Source of the DNA: an uncultured bacterium
Lineage (GTDB): Bacteria > Bacteroidota > Bacteroidia > Chitinophagales > Chitinophagaceae
Reading direction: 5' to 3'
Assembly (NCBI GenBank): GCA_903951405.1
Contig: CAJBBV010000088.1
Location: 1 to 44,119, forward strand
Length of the DNA: 44,119 nucleotides
This document shows positions 348-41,273 of this stretch, in pieces; the stretch's first letter is position 1, and each line of letters opens with the position of its first letter. The notes under the pieces are model-generated. The model made no database searches. It was not told the origin of the DNA and saw only the letters and a program-made list of their open reading frames with translations. A program made the translations under genes and the position numbers.

Positions 348-2384
348 ATGCAAGAAGCACTTAATCACAAAAAAATCCCTTTTTTCAGAATCGGCATCTG
401 CATGGTGGCTGGCATCTTGAGTGACGAATTTATTACACATTGTCTATTCCCTTGGTTTATCCTAGCCACCTCGAGCATCCTCATATTATCGGCATTCTAT
501 TTTTTTACTCCTGCCTTATCTTGGAGGATAGGCTATATCAAAGGAATCGCAATAATACTGCTGCTATGTTCCTTTGGAGGAATATGCAATCAGTTAAGAT
601 CTCCGAAAAACAGAAATCATACAATTGACAACTACACATTCCATGGGCTATTGATAAATGAAGAAGGAAAACATACAAAAACAAATACCCGTTATGAAGT
701 AGATATTTTTAGCATTGATAAAAATAAATTCCACTTTTTATCTAAGGGATATCTATATACCTACCCTACAAAAGGCAAAACCATCAAGCAAGGTGATTTC
801 TTAATTACAAATAATAGAGTAAGAGAAATAGTACAAAAAAATAATCCGGGAGCATACAATTTTTCCAGGCAATCTTCCTTAAAAGGTATTTTCTATACAA
901 TCAACATAAACGACACGTTAGAGTATGAACTTATCAATCATAATAAGGATAGACTGAAGACATTAATAGAAAAATCTCGATTGCATATTATAGCCATTCT
1001 AAGAAGTTCACTCAACAACAAGCAAACAATAGGACTTGCCGAAGCCATGCTCATTGGTTTTCGTGATGACCTAGACAAAGAGCTATTGTCATCTTATATT
1101 AACACCGGCGTTGTTCATATCATCGCCATTTCAGGAATGCACCTCGGTCTAATCTTTTTAATCATCAATTTTTTTACAAAAATTCTAATCGGCAAGAAAA
1201 GAACATCTATTTCAGGCATACTGATTACCATTCCGATTTTATGGTTATTCTCATTGCTTACAGGAGGGTCAGCTTCAGTGATACGAAGTGCGATTATGTT
1301 GTCCCTTATTTTGATTTCAACATTTTTAAAAAAATCGAGTAATGGTTTAAATACACTACTTGCATCAGCATTCATCTTAATCGTTCACAACCCTTCTATT
1401 CTCTACGATCTTGGATTCCTACTTAGTTATGCTGCCGTACTTTCAATACTAATATTTGATCCCCTAATTAAAAAACTAGTTTATGTAAAGAATGGTATTT
1501 TAAAAAAAGGGTGGGAAATGATTTCCATCACCCTAGCTGCACAAATCTTAACAACACCCATTAGTATTTTTTATTTCCATCAATTTCCACTCCTGTTTCT
1601 ATTCACTAACCTAGTCGCTATTCCACTATCAAGTGTAATTCTACTCTCGGAAATAGCTTTATGTGTTTTTTGGCAAATTGGAATCCCCCCTTATGCTATT
1701 GCCAATACAGTTAATACCCTGATTACCTTTCTCAATAATTATATCCACTATATGGAGAAAATACCATTCGGCATGATAAAGCATATCTATATTGACATAT
1801 CATCTATGCTTCTGATTTATGGTGTAATTTTTGCGGCATATGTGTTATGCAAAAAATACAATTCCATCAATTTAAAGTTGTTTTGCTGGTCAATACTCCT
1901 CTTTTCAACAACACACCTTTTAGAAACGTTTATCCATTATCAAAAAAACAGAATTATTGTTTTAGACATCCTTAATCACTCATGCATTGTGGTTCAACAT
2001 GGAAAGAAAGCTGTGATTTTGGGAGACAATACACTATTTCTAAACAGGGATAAATTTGATGAAATCAAAGAGCAAATCGGCTATGCATTTTGGATCAAAA
2101 AGTTCCAGTTGAAAAAATTACCTCAACAGCCTTGTATAATCACACTTCAGGCTAACCAATTAATTGGGCCAAGTAAAGTTCCCCATACACCAATCAGCAT
2201 TCTTTCAGGAAATCCTAGACTCCACCTAAATGATCTGACTCAACTAATCCATGAAAATAATATGCTCATCATTGATCATTCTAACAAAGTGTGGAAAATT
2301 CGACAATGGGAAAAAGAAGCAGATAAACTACTTTTGCGCTTTAATTCCATAGCCGAAAAAGGTCCCTATATTCTTGAGAATTAA
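348..2384 (+). CDS. comEC: ComEC/Rec2-family DNA uptake channel protein
   Basis: A 678-residue polytopic inner-membrane protein. ComEC carries transforming single-stranded DNA across the inner membrane. The N-terminal part has membrane segments and a soluble DUF4131-like domain (about residues 25-190). The Competence domain follows (about 225-500) with its hallmark HIIAISGMHLGL near residue 255 and several hydrophobic helices. The C-terminal tail (about 540-678) has beta-rich pieces such as RIIVLDILNHSCIVVQHG, but none of the HxHxDH metal motif of the metallo-beta-lactamase domain found in longer ComEC proteins. The ATG at 348 fits the family (short polar lead, then PFFRIGICMVAGIL). It sits right after a stem-loop. 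The stop lies 34 bases before purH, so the two are probably co-transcribed. Confidence 0.88.
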   Translation: MQEALNHKKIPFFRIGICMVAGILSDEFITHCLFPWFILATSSILILSAFYFFTPALSWRIGYIKGIAIILLLCSFGGICNQLRSPKNRNHTIDNYTFHGLLINEEGKHTKTNTRYEVDIFSIDKNKFHFLSKGYLYTYPTKGKTIKQGDFLITNNRVREIVQKNNPGAYNFSRQSSLKGIFYTININDTLEYELINHNKDRLKTLIEKSRLHIIAILRSSLNNKQTIGLAEAMLIGFRDDLDKELLSSYINTGVVHIIAISGMHLGLIFLIINFFTKILIGKKRTSISGILITIPILWLFSLLTGGSASVIRSAIMLSLILISTFLKKSSNGLNTLLASAFILIVHNPSILYDLGFLLSYAAVLSILIFDPLIKKLVYVKNGILKKGWEMISITLAAQILTTPISIFYFHQFPLLFLFTNLVAIPLSSVILLSEIALCVFWQIGIPPYAIANTVNTLITFLNNYIHYMEKIPFGMIKHIYIDISSMLLIYGVIFAAYVLCKKYNSINLKLFCWSILLFSTTHLLETFIHYQKNRIIVLDILNHSCIVVQHGKKAVILGDNTLFLNRDKFDEIKEQIGYAFWIKKFQLKKLPQQPCIITLQANQLIGPSKVPHTPISILSGNPRLHLNDLTQLIHENNMLIIDHSNKVWKIRQWEKEADKLLLRFNSIAEKGPYILEN

Positions 2385-29823: not shown

Positions 29824-31350
29824 ATGGAAAATAAAAAATGCATCTTAGTAATCATGGATGGATGGGGACTTGGCGCAGTACCGGAAAACGATGCCATCCA
29901 ACATGCGAATACACCATTTGTTTCCTCTTTGTACCAGAAATACCCAAACTCTACATTAACAACCTGTGGAGAGTTGGTGGGGCTGCCTGATGGCCAAATG
30001 GGCAACAGTGAAGTAGGACATCTAAATCTTGGCGCAGGAAGAATAGTTTACCAAGAATTGCAACGCATCAATGTTGCTATTCGAAATCATTCTTTTCAAC
30101 AGAATGAAACATTACTGCGATCACTACATTATGCAAAAAAGAATAATAAAAAACTACACCTGATCGGATTGGTAAGTGATGGTGGTGTCCATTCACACAT
30201 TAGCCATCTCGAAGCCATTACTGATTTATGTAAATCAGAAGGACTTGAGCAAGTCTTTATTCATGCATTTACAGATGGCAGGGATACAGATCCGAAAAGT
30301 GGATTAGGATTCATTAAGCAATTAGAAAGCCATTTAAAAACCTCTACTGGAAAGATTGCAACAATCACTGGAAGGTATTATGCAATGGATAGAGATAAGC
30401 GTTGGGAAAGAGTAAAACTAGCTTATGATGCATTAGTTCATAACGAAGGGTCACTAGCAAAAGACGCTTCATTAGCCATTGAGGAATGCTACAAGAATAA
30501 TCTAACAGACGAATTCATCAAGCCAATTATCATAACGGGAGAAGATAATATACCATTGGCAAAAATAGAAGAGGGAGATGCAGTACTTTGTTTTAATTTC
30601 AGAACAGATAGATGCCGCGAGATTACTGAGGTACTAACACAAAAAGATTTTCAAGAATTCGGAATGCATAAGCTTGCATTGGAATACACTACCATGACCG
30701 AATATGATAATACATTTAATCATGTACATGTTGTATTCAATAATGATAACCTTACTCATACATTAGGGGAAACACTTGAGAAATATGGCAAGACCCAAAT
30801 TCGCATAGCAGAAACAGAAAAATACCCCCATGTTACATTCTTTTTTAATGGTGGCAGGGAACTGCCATTTGAAGGCGAAAAACGCATCATGGCGCAATCA
30901 CCAAAAGTAGCAACCTATGACCTTCAACCAGAAATGAGTGCAGCAGAATTAACTGATAAAATTCTTCCAGAAATAAAAAACAAAACGGCCGACTTCATTT
31001 GCTTAAACTATGCTAATGCAGATATGGTTGGGCATACCGGTATTTGGGATGCTGTTATCAAAGCAGTTGAAACGGTAGATAATTGCGTTCAGCAAGTGGT
31101 TGAAGCAGCACTTGAAAGTGGCTATACTATTTTTCTTACCGCCGATCATGGTAATGCAGATTACATGAGAAATGAGGATGGAAGTCCAAACACAGCCCAT
31201 ACACTAAACCCTGTTCCACTGTTCATTATAGACAAAGAATGGGCTGGTAATCTAAAAGCTGGAAAACTAGGAGACATCGCTCCAACCATACTTCACTTTA
31301 TGAAAGTGCCCATACCTATTGAAATGACTGGCGATATTTTAGTTTACTAA
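29824..31350 (+). CDS. gpmI: Phosphoglycerate mutase, cofactor-independent
   Basis: iPGM interconverts 3- and 2-phosphoglycerate in glycolysis using two metal ions and a phosphoserine intermediate. The 508-residue protein has the start VIMDGWGLG, the catalytic Ser62 in GQMGNSEVGHLNLGAGRI, the DGRDTDPKSG loop, GRYYAMDRDKRWERV, and metal ligands in LNYANADMVGHTG and TADHGNADYM. It is complete and ordinary. The stop overlaps the next start by one base (TAATG), so the small membrane protein that follows is translationally coupled to it. Confidence 0.97.
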   Translation: MENKKCILVIMDGWGLGAVPENDAIQHANTPFVSSLYQKYPNSTLTTCGELVGLPDGQMGNSEVGHLNLGAGRIVYQELQRINVAIRNHSFQQNETLLRSLHYAKKNNKKLHLIGLVSDGGVHSHISHLEAITDLCKSEGLEQVFIHAFTDGRDTDPKSGLGFIKQLESHLKTSTGKIATITGRYYAMDRDKRWERVKLAYDALVHNEGSLAKDASLAIEECYKNNLTDEFIKPIIITGEDNIPLAKIEEGDAVLCFNFRTDRCREITEVLTQKDFQEFGMHKLALEYTTMTEYDNTFNHVHVVFNNDNLTHTLGETLEKYGKTQIRIAETEKYPHVTFFFNGGRELPFEGEKRIMAQSPKVATYDLQPEMSAAELTDKILPEIKNKTADFICLNYANADMVGHTGIWDAVIKAVETVDNCVQQVVEAALESGYTIFLTADHGNADYMRNEDGSPNTAHTLNPVPLFIIDKEWAGNLKAGKLGDIAPTILHFMKVPIPIEMTGDILVY

Positions 31351-31894: not shown

Positions 31895-34192
31895 ATGAAA
31901 AGTAAAATAACAGCATGGCTGTTACTGTCTTTTTGTGCGCAGCATTTTTTATCAGCACAAGAAAAAGTAAGTACCCTCGATAGCACCAAAGACTTAACTG
32001 AAATCATCGTATCAGGAAATAAGTTTGCAGAAAAGAAAAAAAACATTGTTCAAAAAATAGATATTATCTCAGCAGGATATATTAATAAGGCAAATACCCA
32101 AAACATAGGCGACCTGCTTATGAACACAGGTAATATATTTGTACAAAAGAGTCAACAAGGTGGCAGCAGTCCTGTTATTCGTGGATTTGAAGCCAGTAGA
32201 ATTTTATTAATTGTTGACGGTGTAAGAATGAATAATGCTATTTATCGATCTGGGCATTTGCAAAATGCCATCACAGTTGATCAAAATATGTTAGCAAGTG
32301 TTGAAGTGCTTCAAGGCCCTTCTTCTACTTTATATGGAAGTGACGCGTTAGGTGGGGCAATTCATATGCTCACTAAAAAACCAATTCTATCTCACAAAAC
32401 CGGAAAGACTTTCGTAAATAGCAATGCGTTCGCAAGGTATTCATCAGCAAACAATGAAAAGACAATACACGCAGATGTTAATATTGGATTAGCAAAATTT
32501 GGTATTCTTACTAGCGTTACGCAGAGTGATTTTGGGGATGTAACGATTGGGAAAAATGACAAGTCAGGTTTTGCTGGATTTGGAACGCGTCCATTTTATA
32601 TTCAACCCTACGATGGCGTGCACGGTGATACCATTATGCAAAATAAAAACGATAGAGTTCAACGATTTTCAGGATACTCCCAAATTGACCTAATGCAAAA
32701 GGTCCTTTTTAAGGCCAGTGATAACATCACACATGAACTAAACCTTCAGTATTCAACAACTTCAAATGTGCCGAGGTATGACCGTTTACAGGATATCACA
32801 AATGGAGCGCTGCGCTATGCCTCTTGGTATTATGGACCACAAGACAGATCTCTAATTGCGTATACCCTTAGCGCTAAAAATCAGCGTGGGTTTTTTTCTG
32901 AATACAACGCAATATTAAATTATCAAGGGATTGAAGAAAGTCGGATAACAAGGGAATATAAAAAATATGATCGCTTTGACAAACGTGTTGAAAAGGTAGG
33001 TGTTACCGGTTTAGTTATCGATGCTAGAAAAAAATGGCAGCATGACGAAATAACATCTGGAATTGACATCCAACTGAACAATGTAAAATCAGTAGCATCA
33101 AGAACAAATCTGCTAAATCAATCTGTAACAAAATTAGATACAAGATATCCTGATGGGAAAAACAACATGAATTATGCTGCAGTATATACTGAGCACATCC
33201 ATAAATTCAAAAACTCAAAATGGATATTGAATGATGGAGTTCGGGTGCAATACATTTCATTACGTTCAACCATAGAGGACAATTCATTTTTATCCCTCCC
33301 AGTAACCCATGTAGTACAAAACAATACATCGTTGACAGGAAATATTGGGTTAGCATATCAGCCAACGAGCTCGACCAGAATTTCTATAAGTTATTCTTCA
33401 GGCTTTAGAGCTCCAAACATAGATGATCTTTCAAAAATATTTGAATCAAGCACTTCAGCCCAGCAAGTTGTCATTCCAAATTCAAATCTTAAGCCTGAGT
33501 ATACTAACAGTTTTGACCTCGGACTGAAACATATCATAGCGAGTAAAGTGGAATTTGAGATTGGTCTGTTCTATACAAACTTCAGTAATGCCATCATAAA
33601 AGCCCCCTATACATTAAATGGGCAGGATTCAATACTGTACAATAATGTAAAATCTCAAGTATTAGCGAGTCAAAATGCAAACAATGCATACCTATATGGA
33701 GGAAACTTGAGCACAAATATACATTTTGATGAGCATTGGAAATTTTCGGGGAGTGTGAACCTTACAAAAGGCAGATTTCTTACTGATGTAAATTCCAAAT
33801 CAACTATTTACCAAAAACAGGAAGATGGTTCATACTCTTTAGCGAAGGCAAATGTATCGTCAAAGCCACTAGATCACATTCCGCCAATATTTGGCAAGCT
33901 AAGTTTAGGATATGAGCGTAAAAAAAGATACGCCGAACTATATATGCTATATAACGGATGGAAAACCCTGAATCAATACAATGCAGATGGGGAAGATAAT
34001 GCTCAATATGCTACAGCAAAAGGGAGTCCATCATGGCAAACACTTAACATAAAAGCAGGAACATCGGTAGGGGAAAAATTGACCATACAGGCAGGTATTG
34101 AAAATATATTGGATATTAACTACCGCTACTTTGCATCTGGCTTTTCGGCCCCTGGAAGAAGTTTCATCATAAGCCTGCGTGCACATTTTTAA
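31895..34192 (+). CDS. TonB-dependent receptor, hemoglobin/transferrin-receptor-like
   Basis: 765 residues. The signal peptide ends near FLSAQ (residue 22). The plug (about 33-155) shows PVIRGFEASRILLIVDGVRM, NNAIYRSGHLQNAI and VLQGPSSTLYGSDALGGAI, close to the hemoglobin/transferrin receptor group. The barrel carries FRAPN near residue 504 and NSNLKPEY shortly after, resembling the FRAP and NPNL motifs of heme receptors, and ends in FIISLRAHF. There is no carboxypeptidase-like extension and no SusD partner. The ligand is inferred, not shown. It is third in the gpmI operon, starting 26 bases after the unknown membrane-anchored gene. Confidence 0.9.
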   Translation: MKSKITAWLLLSFCAQHFLSAQEKVSTLDSTKDLTEIIVSGNKFAEKKKNIVQKIDIISAGYINKANTQNIGDLLMNTGNIFVQKSQQGGSSPVIRGFEASRILLIVDGVRMNNAIYRSGHLQNAITVDQNMLASVEVLQGPSSTLYGSDALGGAIHMLTKKPILSHKTGKTFVNSNAFARYSSANNEKTIHADVNIGLAKFGILTSVTQSDFGDVTIGKNDKSGFAGFGTRPFYIQPYDGVHGDTIMQNKNDRVQRFSGYSQIDLMQKVLFKASDNITHELNLQYSTTSNVPRYDRLQDITNGALRYASWYYGPQDRSLIAYTLSAKNQRGFFSEYNAILNYQGIEESRITREYKKYDRFDKRVEKVGVTGLVIDARKKWQHDEITSGIDIQLNNVKSVASRTNLLNQSVTKLDTRYPDGKNNMNYAAVYTEHIHKFKNSKWILNDGVRVQYISLRSTIEDNSFLSLPVTHVVQNNTSLTGNIGLAYQPTSSTRISISYSSGFRAPNIDDLSKIFESSTSAQQVVIPNSNLKPEYTNSFDLGLKHIIASKVEFEIGLFYTNFSNAIIKAPYTLNGQDSILYNNVKSQVLASQNANNAYLYGGNLSTNIHFDEHWKFSGSVNLTKGRFLTDVNSKSTIYQKQEDGSYSLAKANVSSKPLDHIPPIFGKLSLGYERKKRYAELYMLYNGWKTLNQYNADGEDNAQYATAKGSPSWQTLNIKAGTSVGEKLTIQAGIENILDINYRYFASGFSAPGRSFIISLRAHF

Positions 34193-34282
34193 AAAAAATA
34201 ACAAATATCATCAAAAGTTTACCCTGAAGCAGCGGCTCTAATCCAAAAATTGTCTTAAATTCAGAAATCAATACATGATTTC

Positions 34283-34864
34283 ATGACAGAAGAGTTGCTT
34301 CTTCAGGGTTGCTTACAAAACGATGCTACGGCACATCAAGAGCTATACAATAGGTATAGCCCAAGGATGTTGTCAGTATGTTACCGGTATGCAAAGACCC
34401 GTGAAGATGCAGAGGATATGTTACAGGAGGGGTTTATTAAGGTATTCACCCAAATTGGTCAATTTGAGGCAAGAGGTTCTTTTGAAGGTTGGATGTTAAG
34501 GATTATGGTACATACCTGTATCAATCACCTTAAAAAAAATAAACGCTTCAACGAAAATGTCGACATTATTCAAGCTGCTAACATCAGCATTAAAGACGAC
34601 AACATACCATCGACGCTTCAAGCAAAGCAAGTTGTTGAGTGCATAAGAACATTGCCAACAGGCTACCGAACTGTCTTGAACTTATATGCTATTGAAGGGT
34701 ACTCTCACAAAGAAATCGGCGCACTGCTAGATATTGAAGAAAGTACAAGTAGATCACAATATACTAGAGCAAAAAATATGCTTGAAAATATTTTGATCAA
34801 ACGAAAAATACTCCTGCATGAAAAAGAAAAAAGGAGTTGGTTTTCGCCAGTTAAAACAAATTGA
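34283..34864 (+). CDS. ECF sigma factor paired with a membrane-spanning anti-sigma
   Basis: 193 residues. Region 2 spans about 20-85 (ELYNRYSPRMLSVCYRYAKT, EDAEDMLQEGFIKVF, GWMLRIMVHTCINHLKK). Region 4 spans about 115-165 (LPTGYRTVLNLYAIEGYSHKEIGALLDI, ESTSRSQYTRAK, given as separate blocks). Architecture and the next gene fit the ECF21-like sigma factors of Bacteroidota. It starts 90 bases after the TonB receptor; that gap lacks a TAnnTTTG match, so it may be driven by its own sigma factor or by readthrough. The anti-sigma gene follows by 29 bases. Confidence 0.92.
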   Translation: MTEELLLQGCLQNDATAHQELYNRYSPRMLSVCYRYAKTREDAEDMLQEGFIKVFTQIGQFEARGSFEGWMLRIMVHTCINHLKKNKRFNENVDIIQAANISIKDDNIPSTLQAKQVVECIRTLPTGYRTVLNLYAIEGYSHKEIGALLDIEESTSRSQYTRAKNMLENILIKRKILLHEKEKRSWFSPVKTN

Positions 34865-34893
34865 AATAACGTATAGATATTTAGATAAGGGAA

Positions 34894-36186
34894 ATGGAAA
34901 AATATACACCTGAGGAGCTAGAAGACTTTTTAAAAGAGAGGGCAGATCAATACTTGATGTACCCTTCCGACCATGTATGGGATGCAATTCAAAAGAAATT
35001 GTATCCAAACAAGGCTTGGATGTATTTTTCATTGATTTTACTTCTTGTTGGTATTTCAGGAAGCCTTGTACTAATGAATGTAACCGAACAAAAAGAAATT
35101 CCTGCCAAAACAGGGCAAATCGCTTACCAATTTATCCCACATGATATCATAAAAGATAAATACAAGAACCTCACTTCAATAACTGTTTCAATGAAGCAGA
35201 AAACAGGCTCTAGTGTAAAAAACTTAAATGAAATCACTTCCGCGTTTTCGGAAATAAACAATTCTAGTCAAGAGCAAAATTTGAATATAGAAAAGTTCTC
35301 TTTCAGTGAAAAAGTACTCATCCCTGAAAGTATTTTAAATTTATCCGCACTTAGTGCTCAAAAATCATTCTCAACGGGCAAATTAGAGAAGAAAAATTTT
35401 ATTGCCTCTACACTTGATCATGTGATGGCCAAGGCAAAAAGCATTGGTAAAAAAGCAGTATGGCAATATTATCTAACGCCAACAATTAGCTATAGAAAAT
35501 TAACTGGTCAAGCTAGTAACACTTCATATCAATATACTTCATCCGGATATCAAACCAATTCAATCTTTGCAAAAGACGTTAATGATGCAGTAAGGCATAG
35601 GCCAGGGATTGGACTTGAACTTGGAACAGCCATGCTTTATCCATTAACTAAAAAGCTTTCCTTAAAAACAGGCTTCCAACTTAATTATAACCAATACCAA
35701 ATTGAGGCATTTAATGGCAAACCAGAAATCGCAAGCTATGGAATGAACAACTTTGGGTACGGTGGGAGAATCCCCATTAATACCATTTCCTACTATAGAA
35801 ATGCTGACGGATATACCCCAACCTTATTACGCAATGAACATTACATGTTCTCCATCCCTATCGGGCTTGATTACATAGTAGCAGGCAATAAGAAAATTAA
35901 TTTTTCAATTGCATCAACGATACAACCTACTTATTTAATTACTAATCATGCCTACTTGATTTCAACTAACTTAAAGAATTATGCACAAGAGCCGACACTA
36001 AATAGAAGATGGAACTTAAATTCATCAATTGAGGCCAGTTTGAATGTTCAAATGGGCAACTTTAAATGGAGTGTTGCCCCACAATATCGGTATCAGTTAA
36101 TCTCAAGCTTTAAAAATAAATATCCAATCAAAGAAAACTTGATGGACCTAGGGCTCAAGCTATCTTTAATTAGAACCATTCGTTAA
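34894..36186 (+). CDS. Probable dual membrane-spanning anti-sigma factor (Dma-like)
   Basis: 430 residues in four parts. Residues 1-42 are a cytoplasmic acidic helix pair (EELEDFLKERADQYLMYPSD, VWDAIQKKLYP). Residues 43-61 are one hydrophobic inner-membrane helix. About 62-190 is a polar, Ser/Asn/Lys-rich, low-complexity linker. About 191-430 looks like an outer-membrane barrel: alternating strands, GIGLELGTAMLYPLTKKL, HYMFSIPIGLDYI, FSIASTIQPTYLI and a last strand ending near LKLSLIRTIR. This is the architecture described for Dma anti-sigma factors in Bacteroides, which reach from cytoplasm to outer membrane and pair with an ECF sigma. Position just after the sigma gene supports this. The sensed signal is unknown. 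Confidence 0.8.
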   Translation: MEKYTPEELEDFLKERADQYLMYPSDHVWDAIQKKLYPNKAWMYFSLILLLVGISGSLVLMNVTEQKEIPAKTGQIAYQFIPHDIIKDKYKNLTSITVSMKQKTGSSVKNLNEITSAFSEINNSSQEQNLNIEKFSFSEKVLIPESILNLSALSAQKSFSTGKLEKKNFIASTLDHVMAKAKSIGKKAVWQYYLTPTISYRKLTGQASNTSYQYTSSGYQTNSIFAKDVNDAVRHRPGIGLELGTAMLYPLTKKLSLKTGFQLNYNQYQIEAFNGKPEIASYGMNNFGYGGRIPINTISYYRNADGYTPTLLRNEHYMFSIPIGLDYIVAGNKKINFSIASTIQPTYLITNHAYLISTNLKNYAQEPTLNRRWNLNSSIEASLNVQMGNFKWSVAPQYRYQLISSFKNKYPIKENLMDLGLKLSLIRTIR

Positions 36187-36247: not shown

Positions 36248-36790
36248 ATGACCAAGAACCTGCTCATTCTACTGTTACTTATAACCATTCAATTTTCCTG
36301 TAAAGAGAATACCCATACAAAAAAACAGTATTATCCAGTATATGCCTTTCTCCAACAAGAACTCAATACAATTGATTCGCTTCCACTTGCAGTAACACGT
36401 ATTCAAGAGGAAGATAATAAGATTGATACAGCCATCATTACAAAAGCTGATTTTAGAAAAATTGCAGATGGATTGATTGGAAATGACGTGAAAGACGCAG
36501 AAGCAATCAACGAATACACCGAAACCGTTTATGAAGACCTTGACTTAAAAGACATTACAATTACATACACAACTGACCAGAAAAGAGTTGCCATCTCAAA
36601 AATAGAGATACATGTTGACCCTATAACAGCATTAGTAAAAAGCTTTTATGCAGAAAGAACGGATCAAATGAATACCACCCAGATTGTACGTAAAATATTA
36701 TGGACAAGAGGAAAACAACTGCTCATATCCTCAACGCATTATAGTAAGTCGGAAGCACCAAAAAATATGGTAACTCGATTTAATTGGTAA
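36248..36790 (+). CDS. Hypothetical lipoprotein downstream of the sigma/anti-sigma pair
   Basis: 180 residues with a lipoprotein signal (LLITIQFSC, lipidated Cys at 18). The mature part is polar and alpha/beta mixed: YYPVYAFLQQELNTIDSLP, AIITKADFRKIADGLIG, DLKDITITYT, IEIHVDPITALVKSFYAER. It reads like a small, single-domain periplasmic lipoprotein. I do not recognise the family. It follows the anti-sigma by 61 bases, where a TAATTTTA (one mismatch to TAnnTTTG) ends 5 bases before the ATG. It precedes uvrC by 21 bases. It may belong to the sigma factor's regulon, but that is inferred from position alone. Confidence 0.75.
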   Translation: MTKNLLILLLLITIQFSCKENTHTKKQYYPVYAFLQQELNTIDSLPLAVTRIQEEDNKIDTAIITKADFRKIADGLIGNDVKDAEAINEYTETVYEDLDLKDITITYTTDQKRVAISKIEIHVDPITALVKSFYAERTDQMNTTQIVRKILWTRGKQLLISSTHYSKSEAPKNMVTRFNW

Positions 36791-36811: not shown

Positions 36812-38611
36812 ATGGAGCAAACCGAATTCTATAGCATTCAAAAGACATTACCTAATTCTCCAGGTATCTACAAATACTTCGGAGCAAATAAACAATTGCT
36901 CTATATTGGGAAAGCTAAAAATATCAGAAAAAGAGTAAGCTCCTACTTCAACAAGAATAATCACTCCTATAAAACAAATGAACTCGTTAGGCAGATCATA
37001 CAAATTGAATTTACCATTGTTGAATCTGAACACGACGCACTACTGCTTGAAAACTCACTGATAAAAGAATTTAAACCAAAATATAATATTGTACTAAAAG
37101 ACGATAAAACATATCCATATATCGCCATCAAAAAAGAAGCCTTTTCGCGTGTTTTCTTAACAAGAAGAAAGATAAATGACCAATCAGAATATATCGGCCC
37201 GTTCACCTCTACCCTCAAAGTAAGAGACCTGATTACCTTTATCAAAACACATATTCCGCTTAGGACATGTAATCTTGCATTAAATCAAACTAACATTCAG
37301 AAAAATAAATTTAAAGTTTGCCTAGAATATCATCTCGGTAATTGCAAAGCACCCTGTGTAGGGCTTCAATCCATCGAAGACTATAACAAAGGATTGGATA
37401 ACATTAGGCATATTCTTAAAGGAAATTTTAATGAGATCATCACAGAATATAAAACAAAACAGAAAGAATTTATTACAAGCTTAGCTTTTGAAAAAGCAGA
37501 GCACCTTCAGCAAAAAATAAACAATCTAAAAGACTACCAAGCGAAATCAATTATTGTAAGTCCACGACTAGGTGATATGGATGTATTTGGGATGGCCACC
37601 TTTGAAGATAATATCGTAATCAGTTTCTTGGCTGTGCGAAATGGAACCATCACAAATTCAAAAATTTCTTCTTTCAGCACAAAAATTGAGGAAACAAATG
37701 AAGATCTGCTATCCCAATCTATTATACATTTTCAAACATTGGTTGGAAGTAATGCCAAGGAGCTTATCATCCCCTTCCCGATTGAATTTGGATTAGATTC
37801 TTTTAAAATGACTATCCCGAAAAATGGAGAAAAGAAAAAATTGCTAACACTTGCAGAAACTAACGCCAACTATTTCATTGAAGAAATGCGTAAGAAAAAA
37901 ATGCTTCACCTTAATGACAAAAATGCTGATAAAAAGTTGTTGTTAAAAAACGTGAAAGCTGCCCTATCGTTAAAAAATATACCTACTCATATTGAGTGTT
38001 TCGATAATTCAAACTTTCAAGGAGCATACCCGGTTTCTGCTATGGTATGCTTTAAAAATGGAATTCCCAGTAAATCAGACTACAGGCATTTTAATGTTCA
38101 AACGGTTCAGGGAATCAATGATTTTGCAACCATGAAGGAGGCTGTAACTAGAAGATACAAACGCTTGAAAGCAGAAGATACTGCGCTACCACAACTGGTT
38201 ATTATAGATGGAGGAAAAGGACAACTTAGTGCTGCTGCTGAAGCGATTGAAGCACTTGATCTAACAGGACAAATGACCTTAGTTGGTCTAGCTAAAAATC
38301 AAGAAGAACTATTTTTTGTAGGTGATCAAGAATCACTAAAACTTGGCTATGATAGCGAAGTCCTCCGATTTATAAGAAGTATACGAGATGAAGTACACAA
38401 TTATGGAGTAACCTTCCATCGACAACAACGAAGCAAGGGCACATTTGTAAATGAACTGGAAAGCATACATGGAATTGGGCCACAAACAGCTAGGGAGTTG
38501 TTAACCCATTTTCGTTCGGTCAAAAAAATAAAAGAGGCTAGAGTAGAAGACATTGCAGCAGTTGTTGGAAAAACAAAAGCCAATCTAATTCACACTTACT
38601 TTGAGCAATAA
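36812..38611 (+). CDS. uvrC: UvrABC excinuclease subunit C
   Basis: UvrC makes both cuts around bulky DNA damage. The 599-residue protein has the GIY-YIG nuclease domain first (about 13-95, NSPGIYKYFGANKQLLYIGKA, EFKPKYNIVLKDDKTYPYI). A four-cysteine set (CNLAL, VCLEYH, NCKAPC; about 150-190) matches the UvrC iron-sulfur cluster. A UVR motif follows near 225 and the RNase H-like C-terminal nuclease (CFDNSNFQGAYPVSAMV, VIIDGGKGQLSAA, SIRDEVHNYGVTFHRQQR). Helix-hairpin-helix motifs close it (LESIHGIGPQTARELL). It follows the lipoprotein gene by 21 bases and ends in a strong terminator. Confidence 0.97.
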   Translation: MEQTEFYSIQKTLPNSPGIYKYFGANKQLLYIGKAKNIRKRVSSYFNKNNHSYKTNELVRQIIQIEFTIVESEHDALLLENSLIKEFKPKYNIVLKDDKTYPYIAIKKEAFSRVFLTRRKINDQSEYIGPFTSTLKVRDLITFIKTHIPLRTCNLALNQTNIQKNKFKVCLEYHLGNCKAPCVGLQSIEDYNKGLDNIRHILKGNFNEIITEYKTKQKEFITSLAFEKAEHLQQKINNLKDYQAKSIIVSPRLGDMDVFGMATFEDNIVISFLAVRNGTITNSKISSFSTKIEETNEDLLSQSIIHFQTLVGSNAKELIIPFPIEFGLDSFKMTIPKNGEKKKLLTLAETNANYFIEEMRKKKMLHLNDKNADKKLLLKNVKAALSLKNIPTHIECFDNSNFQGAYPVSAMVCFKNGIPSKSDYRHFNVQTVQGINDFATMKEAVTRRYKRLKAEDTALPQLVIIDGGKGQLSAAAEAIEALDLTGQMTLVGLAKNQEELFFVGDQESLKLGYDSEVLRFIRSIRDEVHNYGVTFHRQQRSKGTFVNELESIHGIGPQTARELLTHFRSVKKIKEARVEDIAAVVGKTKANLIHTYFEQ

Positions 38612-38658: not shown

Positions 38659-39729
38659 TTAGTATGACCAGAGGTCTTGTTCGAAATTGAATATTTTATT
38701 TTTGATGTTTTCCCCTTCATATAATCTGAGGATATCATCTTTTATGTATTGCTTAATGTATAAATCGTATGGATTTTCAATACTCGATTTAACGATGGTA
38801 CTTGAAAAGTATCTGCTCTCAAAGAGTTCTTCCCAACTCATTTTTGCCCCGAAATTTTTACTGTTATACACTTCATATGTTGAGAGAATAGGACGCAAAT
38901 CAGGATAATAAACCCAGAACAAAGGAGACTCACCTTGAACAGTACCGGTGTTTTCGTCTATATAAGTTTTAATTGGTGCGATGCCTAAAATACGTACAAA
39001 CATCCTAGAAGATTCTTTGTCAAAAACCCATTCCTCTTTTAAGCGAAACTTAACGATCTCTTCTGGGTTAAACTCTTTACAAACTACAGAATCCTTAAAA
39101 ATGCCTTTAGAACCTGAAGGGTCTTTTATCCAATCTATAACTGATACTGAATCACATTTTCCTGATATCACTTCTCCAACCTTGGCAATGGTCATCGGTG
39201 TAGTAAACCTATCATCTACGGTAGGATCAAACACCGTAATGTCGCCCTTTTTAATAGCGTGAAGAATGATATTCAAAAACCGTTGGCTTCCATTATCGTC
39301 GTCTGCTTTATATCTAAAGGGAAGATTCATTTTTTCCCTAATATCTATCTCCCTCCATACACGCTCACGATACCAGGCATCATCTTCACGGATATGCTCA
39401 TAATCCAGCGGAGTACGAGTCTTAACCAACTCCCTATCTATTATTGCATCTGGGCGTAGTGATACCTTGACAGAATCAAATGCAAATGGATCCTTAGGTG
39501 GTGGCGGTGGTGGTGCAACAACGGTATCCGCTTTTGCAGCAGCCAAGTTTGCATCCAACAGCTGAGAATTTGTATTCTTGGAAGTAACCTTCTTTGTTGT
39601 CTTTTTAGCGCTAGTAGATTTTCTCTTAGTCTGCGAGTTTGCATCTAACGTGAAAACACCTAGTAAACACATGACCAAAAGACATTTGGACCAGTTAAAT
39701 TTCATACTATGTTTTTTATACTGAATCAT
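38659..39729 (-). CDS. gldN: Type IX secretion ring protein GldN/PorN
   Basis: GldN forms a periplasmic ring with the lipoprotein GldK at the outer membrane. 356 residues: a signal peptide (MKFNWSKCLLVMCLLGVFTLDANSQ in two parts), a Lys/Thr/Ser-rich stretch, a polyproline VVAPPPPPPKDPF near 72-84, then the GldN domain (EHIREDDAWYRERVWREIDIRE, GDITVFDP, KFRLKEEWVFDKESSRMFVRILGIAP, as blocks). The first ATG (39729) overlaps the gldM stop by one base (TAATG). A second ATG at 39705 (residue 9) begins directly at the signal peptide and may be the true start. It is the last gene of the operon, before a two-way terminator. Confidence 0.93.
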   Translation of the reverse strand: MIQYKKHSMKFNWSKCLLVMCLLGVFTLDANSQTKRKSTSAKKTTKKVTSKNTNSQLLDANLAAAKADTVVAPPPPPPKDPFAFDSVKVSLRPDAIIDRELVKTRTPLDYEHIREDDAWYRERVWREIDIREKMNLPFRYKADDDNGSQRFLNIILHAIKKGDITVFDPTVDDRFTTPMTIAKVGEVISGKCDSVSVIDWIKDPSGSKGIFKDSVVCKEFNPEEIVKFRLKEEWVFDKESSRMFVRILGIAPIKTYIDENTGTVQGESPLFWVYYPDLRPILSTYEVYNSKNFGAKMSWEELFESRYFSSTIVKSSIENPYDLYIKQYIKDDILRLYEGENIKNKIFNFEQDLWSY

Positions 39730-41273
39730 TATTTCAAATTATAAGATAGACTTCCAGACAATGTTCTGCTTCGCCCACCAGGATCTCTAACTACAATATC
39801 TGTAATAGCAACTAAGGCACCAGGCTTTAACTTATTAATTAAGGCTGCAGCAGCACCTGTCCATCTTGCCCCTTTATTTTCCACTGGAGAATAATCAGGA
39901 ATATCAAGGCTAACAGCACCAACTCTGTAACTTATCACTTCGAAGGGAGCATCAAACTCAGCATCTTCTAGTTTTGCAATAACTCCACCCATGGCCTTAA
40001 AAGAAGCAGAAGGAACAGATCCTTGCTTTAAATTACCTACAAAGGCTGATGGGCTAGGTAACTGCTTTACACGAAACATGATTTTACCTACAGCCTTCCC
40101 TTGCACCAATACTGTTACACTTTGTTCGCCTGATGCGTCTTGTGTTGGCTTAGCGATATATTTGTTACCACCTACTTTTGTAATGGCTCCACCACTAAAC
40201 TGAGCAGTTACTTTTTCACTTCCTGCGCCCGCTGTTATAGTTAATGGATTTTCAACTCCTATATATAATACATTCATCTTATCCGGTGAAACAGCAACAC
40301 CAGCAGGTGCCCCAATTGTATAATCTATCTTTTTAGAGATTGTTTTTTGCTCTCCTGTATTAGGATCAATAAAGCTTACACTAACATTCATGCTACGAGC
40401 ACCTGTGCCTCCAACATTAAACTTAGATTCTGCTACACCATTCGCATTTACAGAAATACTTCTGCCATCAATTGTAACAGTTGGCTTCACATTAGAGTTA
40501 AACGCACCTAAGCCAGCAGTTACGGTCATTTCTTCGCCAGGCATTAAGTAGGTTGAACTAGTTCCAACCAACGGTTCGAATTTATCCATAATCAATTTAA
40601 CTGAACCCACTTGATTTATACAAAAGGTTGCAGCTAAATTTTCGGAATTTTTAATGTCATTCTGAAATTTGCTTAACATAGTTAATGCAGCTACTGTTGG
40701 TGTCATGTGAAAATAAGTTGTCACCCAATCTTGAATTTTATCACCAGTCTTTAGATTACCAGCTGTAGATTGAGGAACTTCCAAATTCAATGGCAATTTT
40801 GCACTGATTTGAGCAGCCATATCTTTGTCAATAGCCAACAACTTAGATTTAAAATTTTCGAGCTTACTGTATAAATTTTTGCCTTCTCCTTTAGTATCAA
40901 ATAATCGTGTTGCAGCATCGATATTATCTTCTCTAAATGTGCCATCCTCTGCCAAATCAGCCTCCACTTTTAGGTCTTGCTTATATTTATCTATGAGTAC
41001 AGAAACCTCATCTGCCAATACTTTTACTTGGTCAGCTTTGGGTTTCCATATTGCTGCCTTTTGAGCTGACTTAGGATCGTTAAGGAGTTCTTCAAAACTG
41101 CTATATATACCAGAAGTTGAATTTGAAAGTACGCCATTCGATTCCTTAAGGCTGTTATCCACTACCTTGAATGCGTTAAGAATCTCGGCAGACACGTTCA
41201 ATGCAAGTAAGGCGGTCAATACCAAATACATGATATTGATCATCTTCTGCCGCGGGTCTTTAGGAAGTGCCAT
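39729..41273 (-). CDS. gldM: Type IX secretion / gliding motor protein GldM/PorM
   Basis: GldM pairs with GldL in the proton-driven motor of type IX secretion, and its rod-like domains reach across the periplasm. 514 residues: a short cytoplasmic lead with PRQKMINIMYLVLTALLALN, one membrane helix (about 13-33), a helical first domain (about 35-220) and three beta-rich domains after it (GTSSTYLMPGEEMTVTAGLG, DPNTGEQKTISKKIDYTIG, and the C-terminal GDLSL-like FEVISYRVGAVSLDIPDYSP). It ends in VRDPGGRSRTLSGSLSYNLK. The gap to gldL is 43 bases; the stop overlaps the gldN start. Confidence 0.96.
   Translation of the reverse strand: MALPKDPRQKMINIMYLVLTALLALNVSAEILNAFKVVDNSLKESNGVLSNSTSGIYSSFEELLNDPKSAQKAAIWKPKADQVKVLADEVSVLIDKYKQDLKVEADLAEDGTFREDNIDAATRLFDTKGEGKNLYSKLENFKSKLLAIDKDMAAQISAKLPLNLEVPQSTAGNLKTGDKIQDWVTTYFHMTPTVAALTMLSKFQNDIKNSENLAATFCINQVGSVKLIMDKFEPLVGTSSTYLMPGEEMTVTAGLGAFNSNVKPTVTIDGRSISVNANGVAESKFNVGGTGARSMNVSVSFIDPNTGEQKTISKKIDYTIGAPAGVAVSPDKMNVLYIGVENPLTITAGAGSEKVTAQFSGGAITKVGGNKYIAKPTQDASGEQSVTVLVQGKAVGKIMFRVKQLPSPSAFVGNLKQGSVPSASFKAMGGVIAKLEDAEFDAPFEVISYRVGAVSLDIPDYSPVENKGARWTGAAAALINKLKPGALVAITDIVVRDPGGRSRTLSGSLSYNLK

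Follow-up and report, generated by a model that had tools for sequence, protein, structure and literature searches.

The closest described counterparts of the locus considered here are the Das-Dma and EcfO-Reo pairs of sigma and anti-sigma factors, with published genetic studies of Dma1, Dma2 and Reo in Bacteroides and Phocaeicola (PMC13088901, PMC9308784, PMC13114119). As described in PMC13088901, the Dma plan comprises an N-terminal sigma-binding domain, one helix, a long disordered tether and a C-terminal barrel, with an ECF21 sigma gene adjoining, and the family is presented there as Bacteroidota-wide. In the Dma family, loss of the anti-sigma factor is expected to derepress the sigma factor and to raise vesicle output. 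Reo, which is related to Dma, was described in P. vulgatus (PMC9308784, PMC13114119), and in the accounts given of the EcfO-Reo pair of Bacteroides fragilis and Phocaeicola vulgatus the anti-sigma factor spans all five compartments, ends in a barrel and is encoded beside an ECF sigma gene. As these sources present it, work on Dma and Reo covers a few gut Bacteroides and Phocaeicola (PMC13088901, PMC9308784, PMC13114119). The comparisons reported below support the view that a gene pair of the Chitinophagaceae is a form of this known kind.

The window, that is, the whole stretch of 44,119 nucleotides that was analyzed, is contig 88 of an uncultured Chitinophagaceae genome of 2.46 Mb in 204 contigs, and the genes from gpmI to uvrC follow one another on its plus strand in the order given in Table 1. 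The initial annotation had described two of these genes, separated by 29 bases from stop to start, as encoding an ECF sigma factor (193 residues) and an anti-sigma factor of 430 residues that appeared to cross both membranes. Both open reading frames lie where they had been placed, and the identity of the ECF sigma factor is borne out by its matches to Sigma70_r2 and Sigma70_r4_2 in Pfam (Table 1) and to TIGR02937 at 97 bits (cut-off 42.9). In its nearest named relatives, from four metagenome-assembled genomes of which three are labelled Chitinophagaceae and one Chitinophaga pinensis, the 430-residue protein has identities of 86, 87, 96 (partial) and 48%. Beyond uvrC, on the minus strand, the window carries the type IX secretion genes gldN and gldM (38659-41273).

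Table 1. Features of the sigma/anti-sigma locus and its surroundings (window coordinates)
Feature	Position	Strand	Basis or remark
gpmI	29824-31350	+	TIGR01307 above cut-off
172-aa ORF	between gpmI and TonB-dependent receptor	+	
TonB-dependent receptor, a neighbour probably outside the unit	31895..34192	+	TonB_dep_Rec_b-barrel 2.4e-34
Promoter-like site GCAGC-N18-GTCTTA	34229..34257	+	25 nt before sigma start codon; putative autoregulated promoter
ECF sigma factor	34283..34864	+	Sigma70_r2 1.2e-19, Sigma70_r4_2 6.8e-14
Predicted Dma/Reo-type anti-sigma factor, 430 aa	34894..36186	+	architecture, conservation, sigma gene directly upstream
N-terminal module, residues 1-38, proposed to be cytoplasmic and sigma-binding	34894..35007	+	conservation in family alignment (A2); profile match
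Predicted inner-membrane helix, residues 43-61	35020..35076	+	hydrophobic segment; model helix 40-62
Predicted periplasmic linker, residues 64-187	35083..35454	+	varies in sequence and length
Predicted C-terminal outer-membrane beta-barrel domain, residues 188-430	35455..36183	+	PF13568 in relatives, alternation, low-confidence model
Lipoprotein-like protein	36248..36790	+	without Pfam/NCBIfam family; linked to uvrC
uvrC, excinuclease subunit C	36812..38611	+	TIGR00194 499 bits, cut-off 285

The association between the two genes is constant: among 63 loci, the window being one (L005) and some genomes contributing two (L002/L006, L004/L014, L015/L035, L008/L036), the sigma gene lies directly upstream of the anti-sigma gene in all 57 with room for it, the other six ending at a contig edge. 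In a quick tree of 64 chosen sigma factors, from which the own-genome loci L123, L124 and L131 were omitted for want of a sigma-profile match, a branch with SH-aLRT 93 separates all 41 partner-associated sigma factors, together with L083, L109, L116 and L125, from the rest, and the partner label requires three changes against a mean of 18.4 after shuffling. Many forks of this tree are open and its branches are long, and the grouping is support, not proof, for a single clade of sigma factors residing beside such anti-sigma factors.

A search with the single window sequence at E <= 0.001 in 60 genomes matched 36, namely its own and 35 of 36 of the same genus, and so the observation is not a matter of chance; none of 23 genomes of other genera was matched at this threshold. 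Two of the matches (G029 and G030) are confined to the N-terminal part, and in one same-genus genome (G015) the matched region is interrupted by a stop codon. A search of the class added 28 loci, six of them from the same family, and in 24 of the 28 a relative occurs together with this type of sigma gene; in one other (L083) the sigma gene is present and the relative was not recovered by the ORF search. In the last three (L072, L086 and L089) no sigma gene was found and the N-terminal module is not matched; that the two are missing together supports the module as the part that would hold the sigma factor.

The window protein gave no significant match in Pfam or NCBIfam, nor was the FecR family among its matches in these collections up to E 1, and its anatomy was read from an alignment of 27 family members (A2) with mean identities computed against the window row. 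These amount to 58% for residues 1-38, 29% for 39-63, 22% for 64-187 and 60% for 188-430; that is, the N-terminal module and the C-terminal domain are conserved, and the helix and linker are free to vary. All of the parts occur in a single open frame in each of the 27 rows. The first 38 residues contain nine D/E and five K/R. Every row has a single hydrophobic segment, weakly conserved in sequence, for which the best 19-residue window starts at positions 41-46 (1.65-2.55), all other windows reaching 1.35 at most. The linker, of about 124 residues in the window protein and 114-164 in relatives, is prone to insertions and deletions and consists to 35% of P, S, T, N and Q, as would befit a long disordered tether; its alternation of hydrophobicity does not exceed that of its shuffles. 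The plan originally proposed for the protein, an acidic N-terminus, one helix, a polar linker (put at about 130 residues) and a C-terminal region, is upheld by these data.

Residues 188-430 very probably form an outer-membrane beta-barrel. The family PF13568 (OMP_b-brl_2) is matched at E <= 0.1 by eight of the 27 aligned members, the best at 6.3e-9, and the other 19 have no Pfam match. When ten of the 27 were rescanned, an ortholog of 44% identity (L023) scored 36.6 bits over residues 223-390 (cut-off 27), L018, L030 and L032 matched below the cut-off and six gave no match. Among more remote relatives that share the N-terminal module, L077, L078 and L080 exceed the PF13568 cut-off, others score below it or do not match, and no PF13568 match was found in L070 or L072. 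The alternation of hydrophobicity over residues 188-430 is 1.98 compared with 1.34 +- 0.16 in 1000 shuffles, none of which reached as high a value. The barrel character that had been suggested for this region is thus seen in its alternation and in the Pfam matches of its relatives, the window protein itself being without one. Structural modelling was of very low confidence: AlphaFold2 reached a pLDDT of 30 with the single sequence, and with five rows it placed eight long strands in residues 188-429 and a helix at 40-62 (pLDDT 34.8, pTM 0.31), both models being too weak to carry a claim about structure. Foldseek searches with the five-row model returned no match at E <= 0.001, the best being to a secretin at 1.3e-3; several low-ranked matches were outer-membrane barrels and the top ones secretins, and Foldseek was set aside as evidence for a barrel. 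Profile searches of solved structures gave nothing useful. The invariant polar and aromatic residues of the domain, which include Q344-P345, Y400-Q401 and Y410-P411-I412 (A2), are many, suggesting either a recognition role for the barrel or tight constraints on its assembly. At L089 (1135-1863) a homologue of the barrel stands alone, begins with what resembles a signal peptide and matches PF13568 at 5e-14.

Kinship with the Dma family was judged not against the named Bacteroides proteins but via genomes bearing nigD, a reported target of Das1 and EcfO that served as a marker. The NigD_N domain was found in eight of 247 class genomes. In these eight genomes the sigma profile (A4) identified, within the examined part of the matches listed, at least 30 loci, sixteen scoring 116-237 bits and fourteen 68-84; the weakest of the eight genomes (G423) has none of the sixteen. 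At twelve of the sixteen, the sigma gene is followed by a protein of 357-458 residues (open-frame length) that starts like Dma and has a membrane segment; the rest are two fused proteins and two loci (L109 and L116) whose partners are shorter or of another sort. Of the nine NigD_N matches, five are found no more than 1 kb away from one of the sixteen sigma genes (L094, L096, L098, L103 and the short-partner locus L116). The window sigma factor falls on the same side of the tree as the Dma-associated sigma factors of these genomes, which stand here as a proxy for an ECF21 model.

The anti-sigma factors can be compared in the same manner. All twelve nigD-genome partners match PF13568 at E <= 0.1, and the full-profile comparison of the window family with these partners (A2 against A6) gave an E value of 8.3e-7 and a probability of 91.6 over the barrel region. 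The N-terminal modules alone match at 1.7e-5 over 35 columns, against 0.16 for the module of the window family with a control of other anti-sigma factors; the nigD-genome partners' module weakly matches that control (0.0013). Barrel profiles taken alone match weakly (E 0.007, probability 5.5). The comparison with Dma that was made at the outset is supported by these results, in that the plan agrees feature by feature and the sequences of both the sigma factor and the N-terminal module show kinship with those of the nigD-genome pairs. The likeness comprises the four-part architecture, the adjoining ECF sigma gene and, via the nigD-genome relatives, a homologous N-terminal module and barrel family; the differences are the Chitinophagaceae host, an own genome in which no NigD_N match was found, and the neighbours gpmI, lipoprotein gene and uvrC. 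Similarly, for Reo's nigD regulon and its triggers, oxygen exposure and toxins, as the published accounts give them, no counterpart is seen for the window pair. The further suggestion that the architecture occurs here in a different branch is correct as to its occurrence in Chitinophagaceae, but this is less surprising than it appeared, same-plan relatives being widespread in the class and the family having been described as Bacteroidota-wide.

Taken together, these data indicate that the two genes probably encode a sigma factor and its anti-sigma factor of the Dma/Reo kind, working as follows. The first 38 or so residues of the anti-sigma factor would keep the ECF sigma factor on the cytoplasmic side of the inner membrane, the one helix would anchor the protein there, and the flexible linker would cross the periplasm to a C-terminal barrel, probably of eight strands, seated in the outer membrane. 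The sigma factor would be freed when the outer membrane is disturbed, when the barrel fails to insert or when a ligand binds to the barrel; using GCAGC-N17/18-GTCTWA, it would then transcribe its own operon, amplifying the response. Overlapping with this proposal is a possible, if rather doubtful, reading in which the barrel is a sacrificial sensor of assembly: when insertion stalls, periplasmic proteases would cut the unfolded domain and the sigma factor would be released. In this reading the domain, anchored in the inner membrane, would be a standing client of the barrel-insertion machine, for which a seat in the outer membrane at rest is unnecessary. The variable linker and highly conserved barrel agree with an assembly sensor, as do the reports that ecfO-reo is among the most upregulated P. 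vulgatus genes under BcpT or Bd-A (PMC13114119) and that BamA is bound and inhibited by bacteroidetocin A (PMC9308784). Yet the present data are equal for an inserted and a stalled barrel, and the published authors describe, in the accounts cited, an anti-sigma factor spanning to the surface.

The proposed autoregulation finds its basis in the promoter-like site, which occurs as GCAGC-N17/18-GTCTWA, ending 23-27 nt ahead of the sigma start codon, in 36 of the 55 loci of the family that were counted, among them the window. A reversed-pattern control was found in 0 of 55, and 200 mononucleotide shuffles of each yielded none; the strict form is absent from 19 of the 55, and looser GCAAC or GCAGC forms are present upstream in eight of 20 further loci scanned. 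The count of 55 omits L004, L014, L035, L036, L025 and L031 as same-genome copies, truncated upstream or a near copy (dropping both L004 and L014 took genome G018 out of it), and a further six loci, without a sigma gene, are at contig ends. An AAC- or AGC-type -35 element and a GTC-type -10 element are usual for ECF promoters, and the simplest reading of the site is that it would serve autoregulation of its own operon. A wide regulon was rejected: across 41 genomes of the genus the strict pattern occurs 190 times and the reversed control 165 times, an excess of roughly the number of sigma sites, and the other two of the three sites in the own genome (spacer 15-19) lie inside long opposite-strand ORFs. 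It is conceivable, albeit unlikely, that in Chitinophagaceae a small operon of sigma factor, anti-sigma factor, lipoprotein and uvrC is governed, with almost no other targets, by an outer-membrane barrel to which a sigma factor is tethered; were this true, the state of the outer membrane would directly determine how much of a DNA excision-repair nuclease is supplied, forming an envelope-to-DNA-repair circuit.

Of the neighbours highlighted by the initial annotation, a TonB receptor, a lipoprotein and uvrC, the latter two are conserved. uvrC lies downstream in 62 of the 63 loci, the exception being a contig end, and 55 of the 63 contain a member of the lipoprotein family; so do ten of 17 uvrC loci from Chitinophagaceae genomes without a Dma match, and gpmI occurs farther upstream in 15 loci that have the pair and in three that do not. 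The neighbourhood of gpmI and lipoprotein-uvrC exists, that is, with or without the sigma pair, insertion and loss of the pair both being possible, and the linkage of lipoprotein and uvrC is independent of it. The two may nevertheless be co-transcribed with the sigma pair; the candidacy of uvrC as a dedicated output is weakened by the persistence of the lipoprotein-uvrC pairing without the sigma pair.

The TonB receptor fared differently. A hemin-type TonB receptor is directly upstream in many same-genus loci, and the locus thereby resembles FecI-FecR systems, in which an ECF sigma factor and a one-helix anti-sigma factor have a TonB receptor nearby. Unlike FecR, however, the window anti-sigma factor has a predicted barrel of its own, and the receptor is found mainly within the genus and before the sigma promoter: other loci of the family have one in only four of 26 cases (partial, 34-49% identity, these loci reaching about 0.8 kb above the sigma gene), and the promoter-like site sits between receptor and sigma gene. 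On both grounds the receptor probably does not belong to the unit, and its role as a third component was rejected as a general rule. The same observations bear on the idea that the membrane segment is routinely cut, as in some FecR-like anti-sigma factors, leaving barrel and stub separate and the signal arriving via, for example, the TonB receptor. The upstream receptors of the genus, the barrel-less stub of 135 residues beside a same-group sigma factor (L125) and the stand-alone barrel of L089 speak for it, but the single open frame of all aligned members and the rarity and separation of the receptor elsewhere make routine cutting distinctly improbable. That the C-terminal domain is a soluble, beta-rich periplasmic sensor is very improbable indeed, for although the window protein is without a Pfam match and the models are of low confidence, the above-cut-off match of L023, the alternation and the twelve nigD-genome partners all argue for a membrane barrel.

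What the locus adds to the Dma/Reo work is a plan conserved in environmental Chitinophagaceae, with a conserved neighbourhood of gpmI, sigma-dma, lipoprotein and uvrC and a promoter motif; no description of this family-wide context and motif was found in the open-access literature searched. In a search of the same family, own genus included, 68 of 85 genomes matched at E <= 0.001 (hand count), four of them (G070, G279, G267 and G317) in the barrel part only. The other 17 of the 85 gave no match, and the pair is therefore dispensable; uvrC is present in all 17, and neither a sigma gene nor a Dma-like ORF was detected upstream of it (within about 1.5 kb at most). A divergent Dma barrel precedes lipoprotein and uvrC in G060, G267 and G317. 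The search of the class matched 57 of 345 genomes at E <= 0.01, and for the 49 matches outside the family the best match was to the N-terminal part or linker in 40 and to the C-terminal part in nine (hand count). A draw from the phylum matched 23 of 247 at E <= 0.001, all labelled as the same class or closer. Copies per genome are lower bounds, scoring having covered the first 5-7 candidates in many genomes. The resulting set of orthologs, with its strongly conserved barrel and free linker, renders sensing by the barrel and, with the motif, the targets of the sigma factor testable outside the gut.

Natural experiments are also at hand among the relatives, which include proteins with repeated N-terminal modules, a stub that has no barrel, C-terminal domains free of the module, and sigma fusions. 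Firstly, L070 (1186-3060), L073 and L084 carry four tandem modules resembling the N-terminal sigma-binding one before the helix, and L088 carries two; no barrel family was matched above cut-off in these four. Perhaps such tandem modules would let one anti-sigma factor hold several sigma molecules. Secondly, the own genome encodes a second sigma factor on the same side of the tree (L125, G000:C151; ORFs 1225-1794(-) and 810-1217(-)), whose partner, the 135-residue stub, has by eye a similar start and a helix. Thirdly, L072 and L086 combine a hydrophobic segment with a Dma-like C-terminal domain. Lastly, the fused loci of the nigD-bearing genomes (L104 and L105) encode single proteins of 553 and 574 residues that unite an ECF sigma factor with a PF13568 barrel, both barrel matches exceeding the cut-off; the sigma factor is likewise fused to the Dma protein in Dma3, and the window genes are separate. 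In both of these loci the next ORF carries a CxxxCxxC motif resembling that of radical-SAM enzymes.
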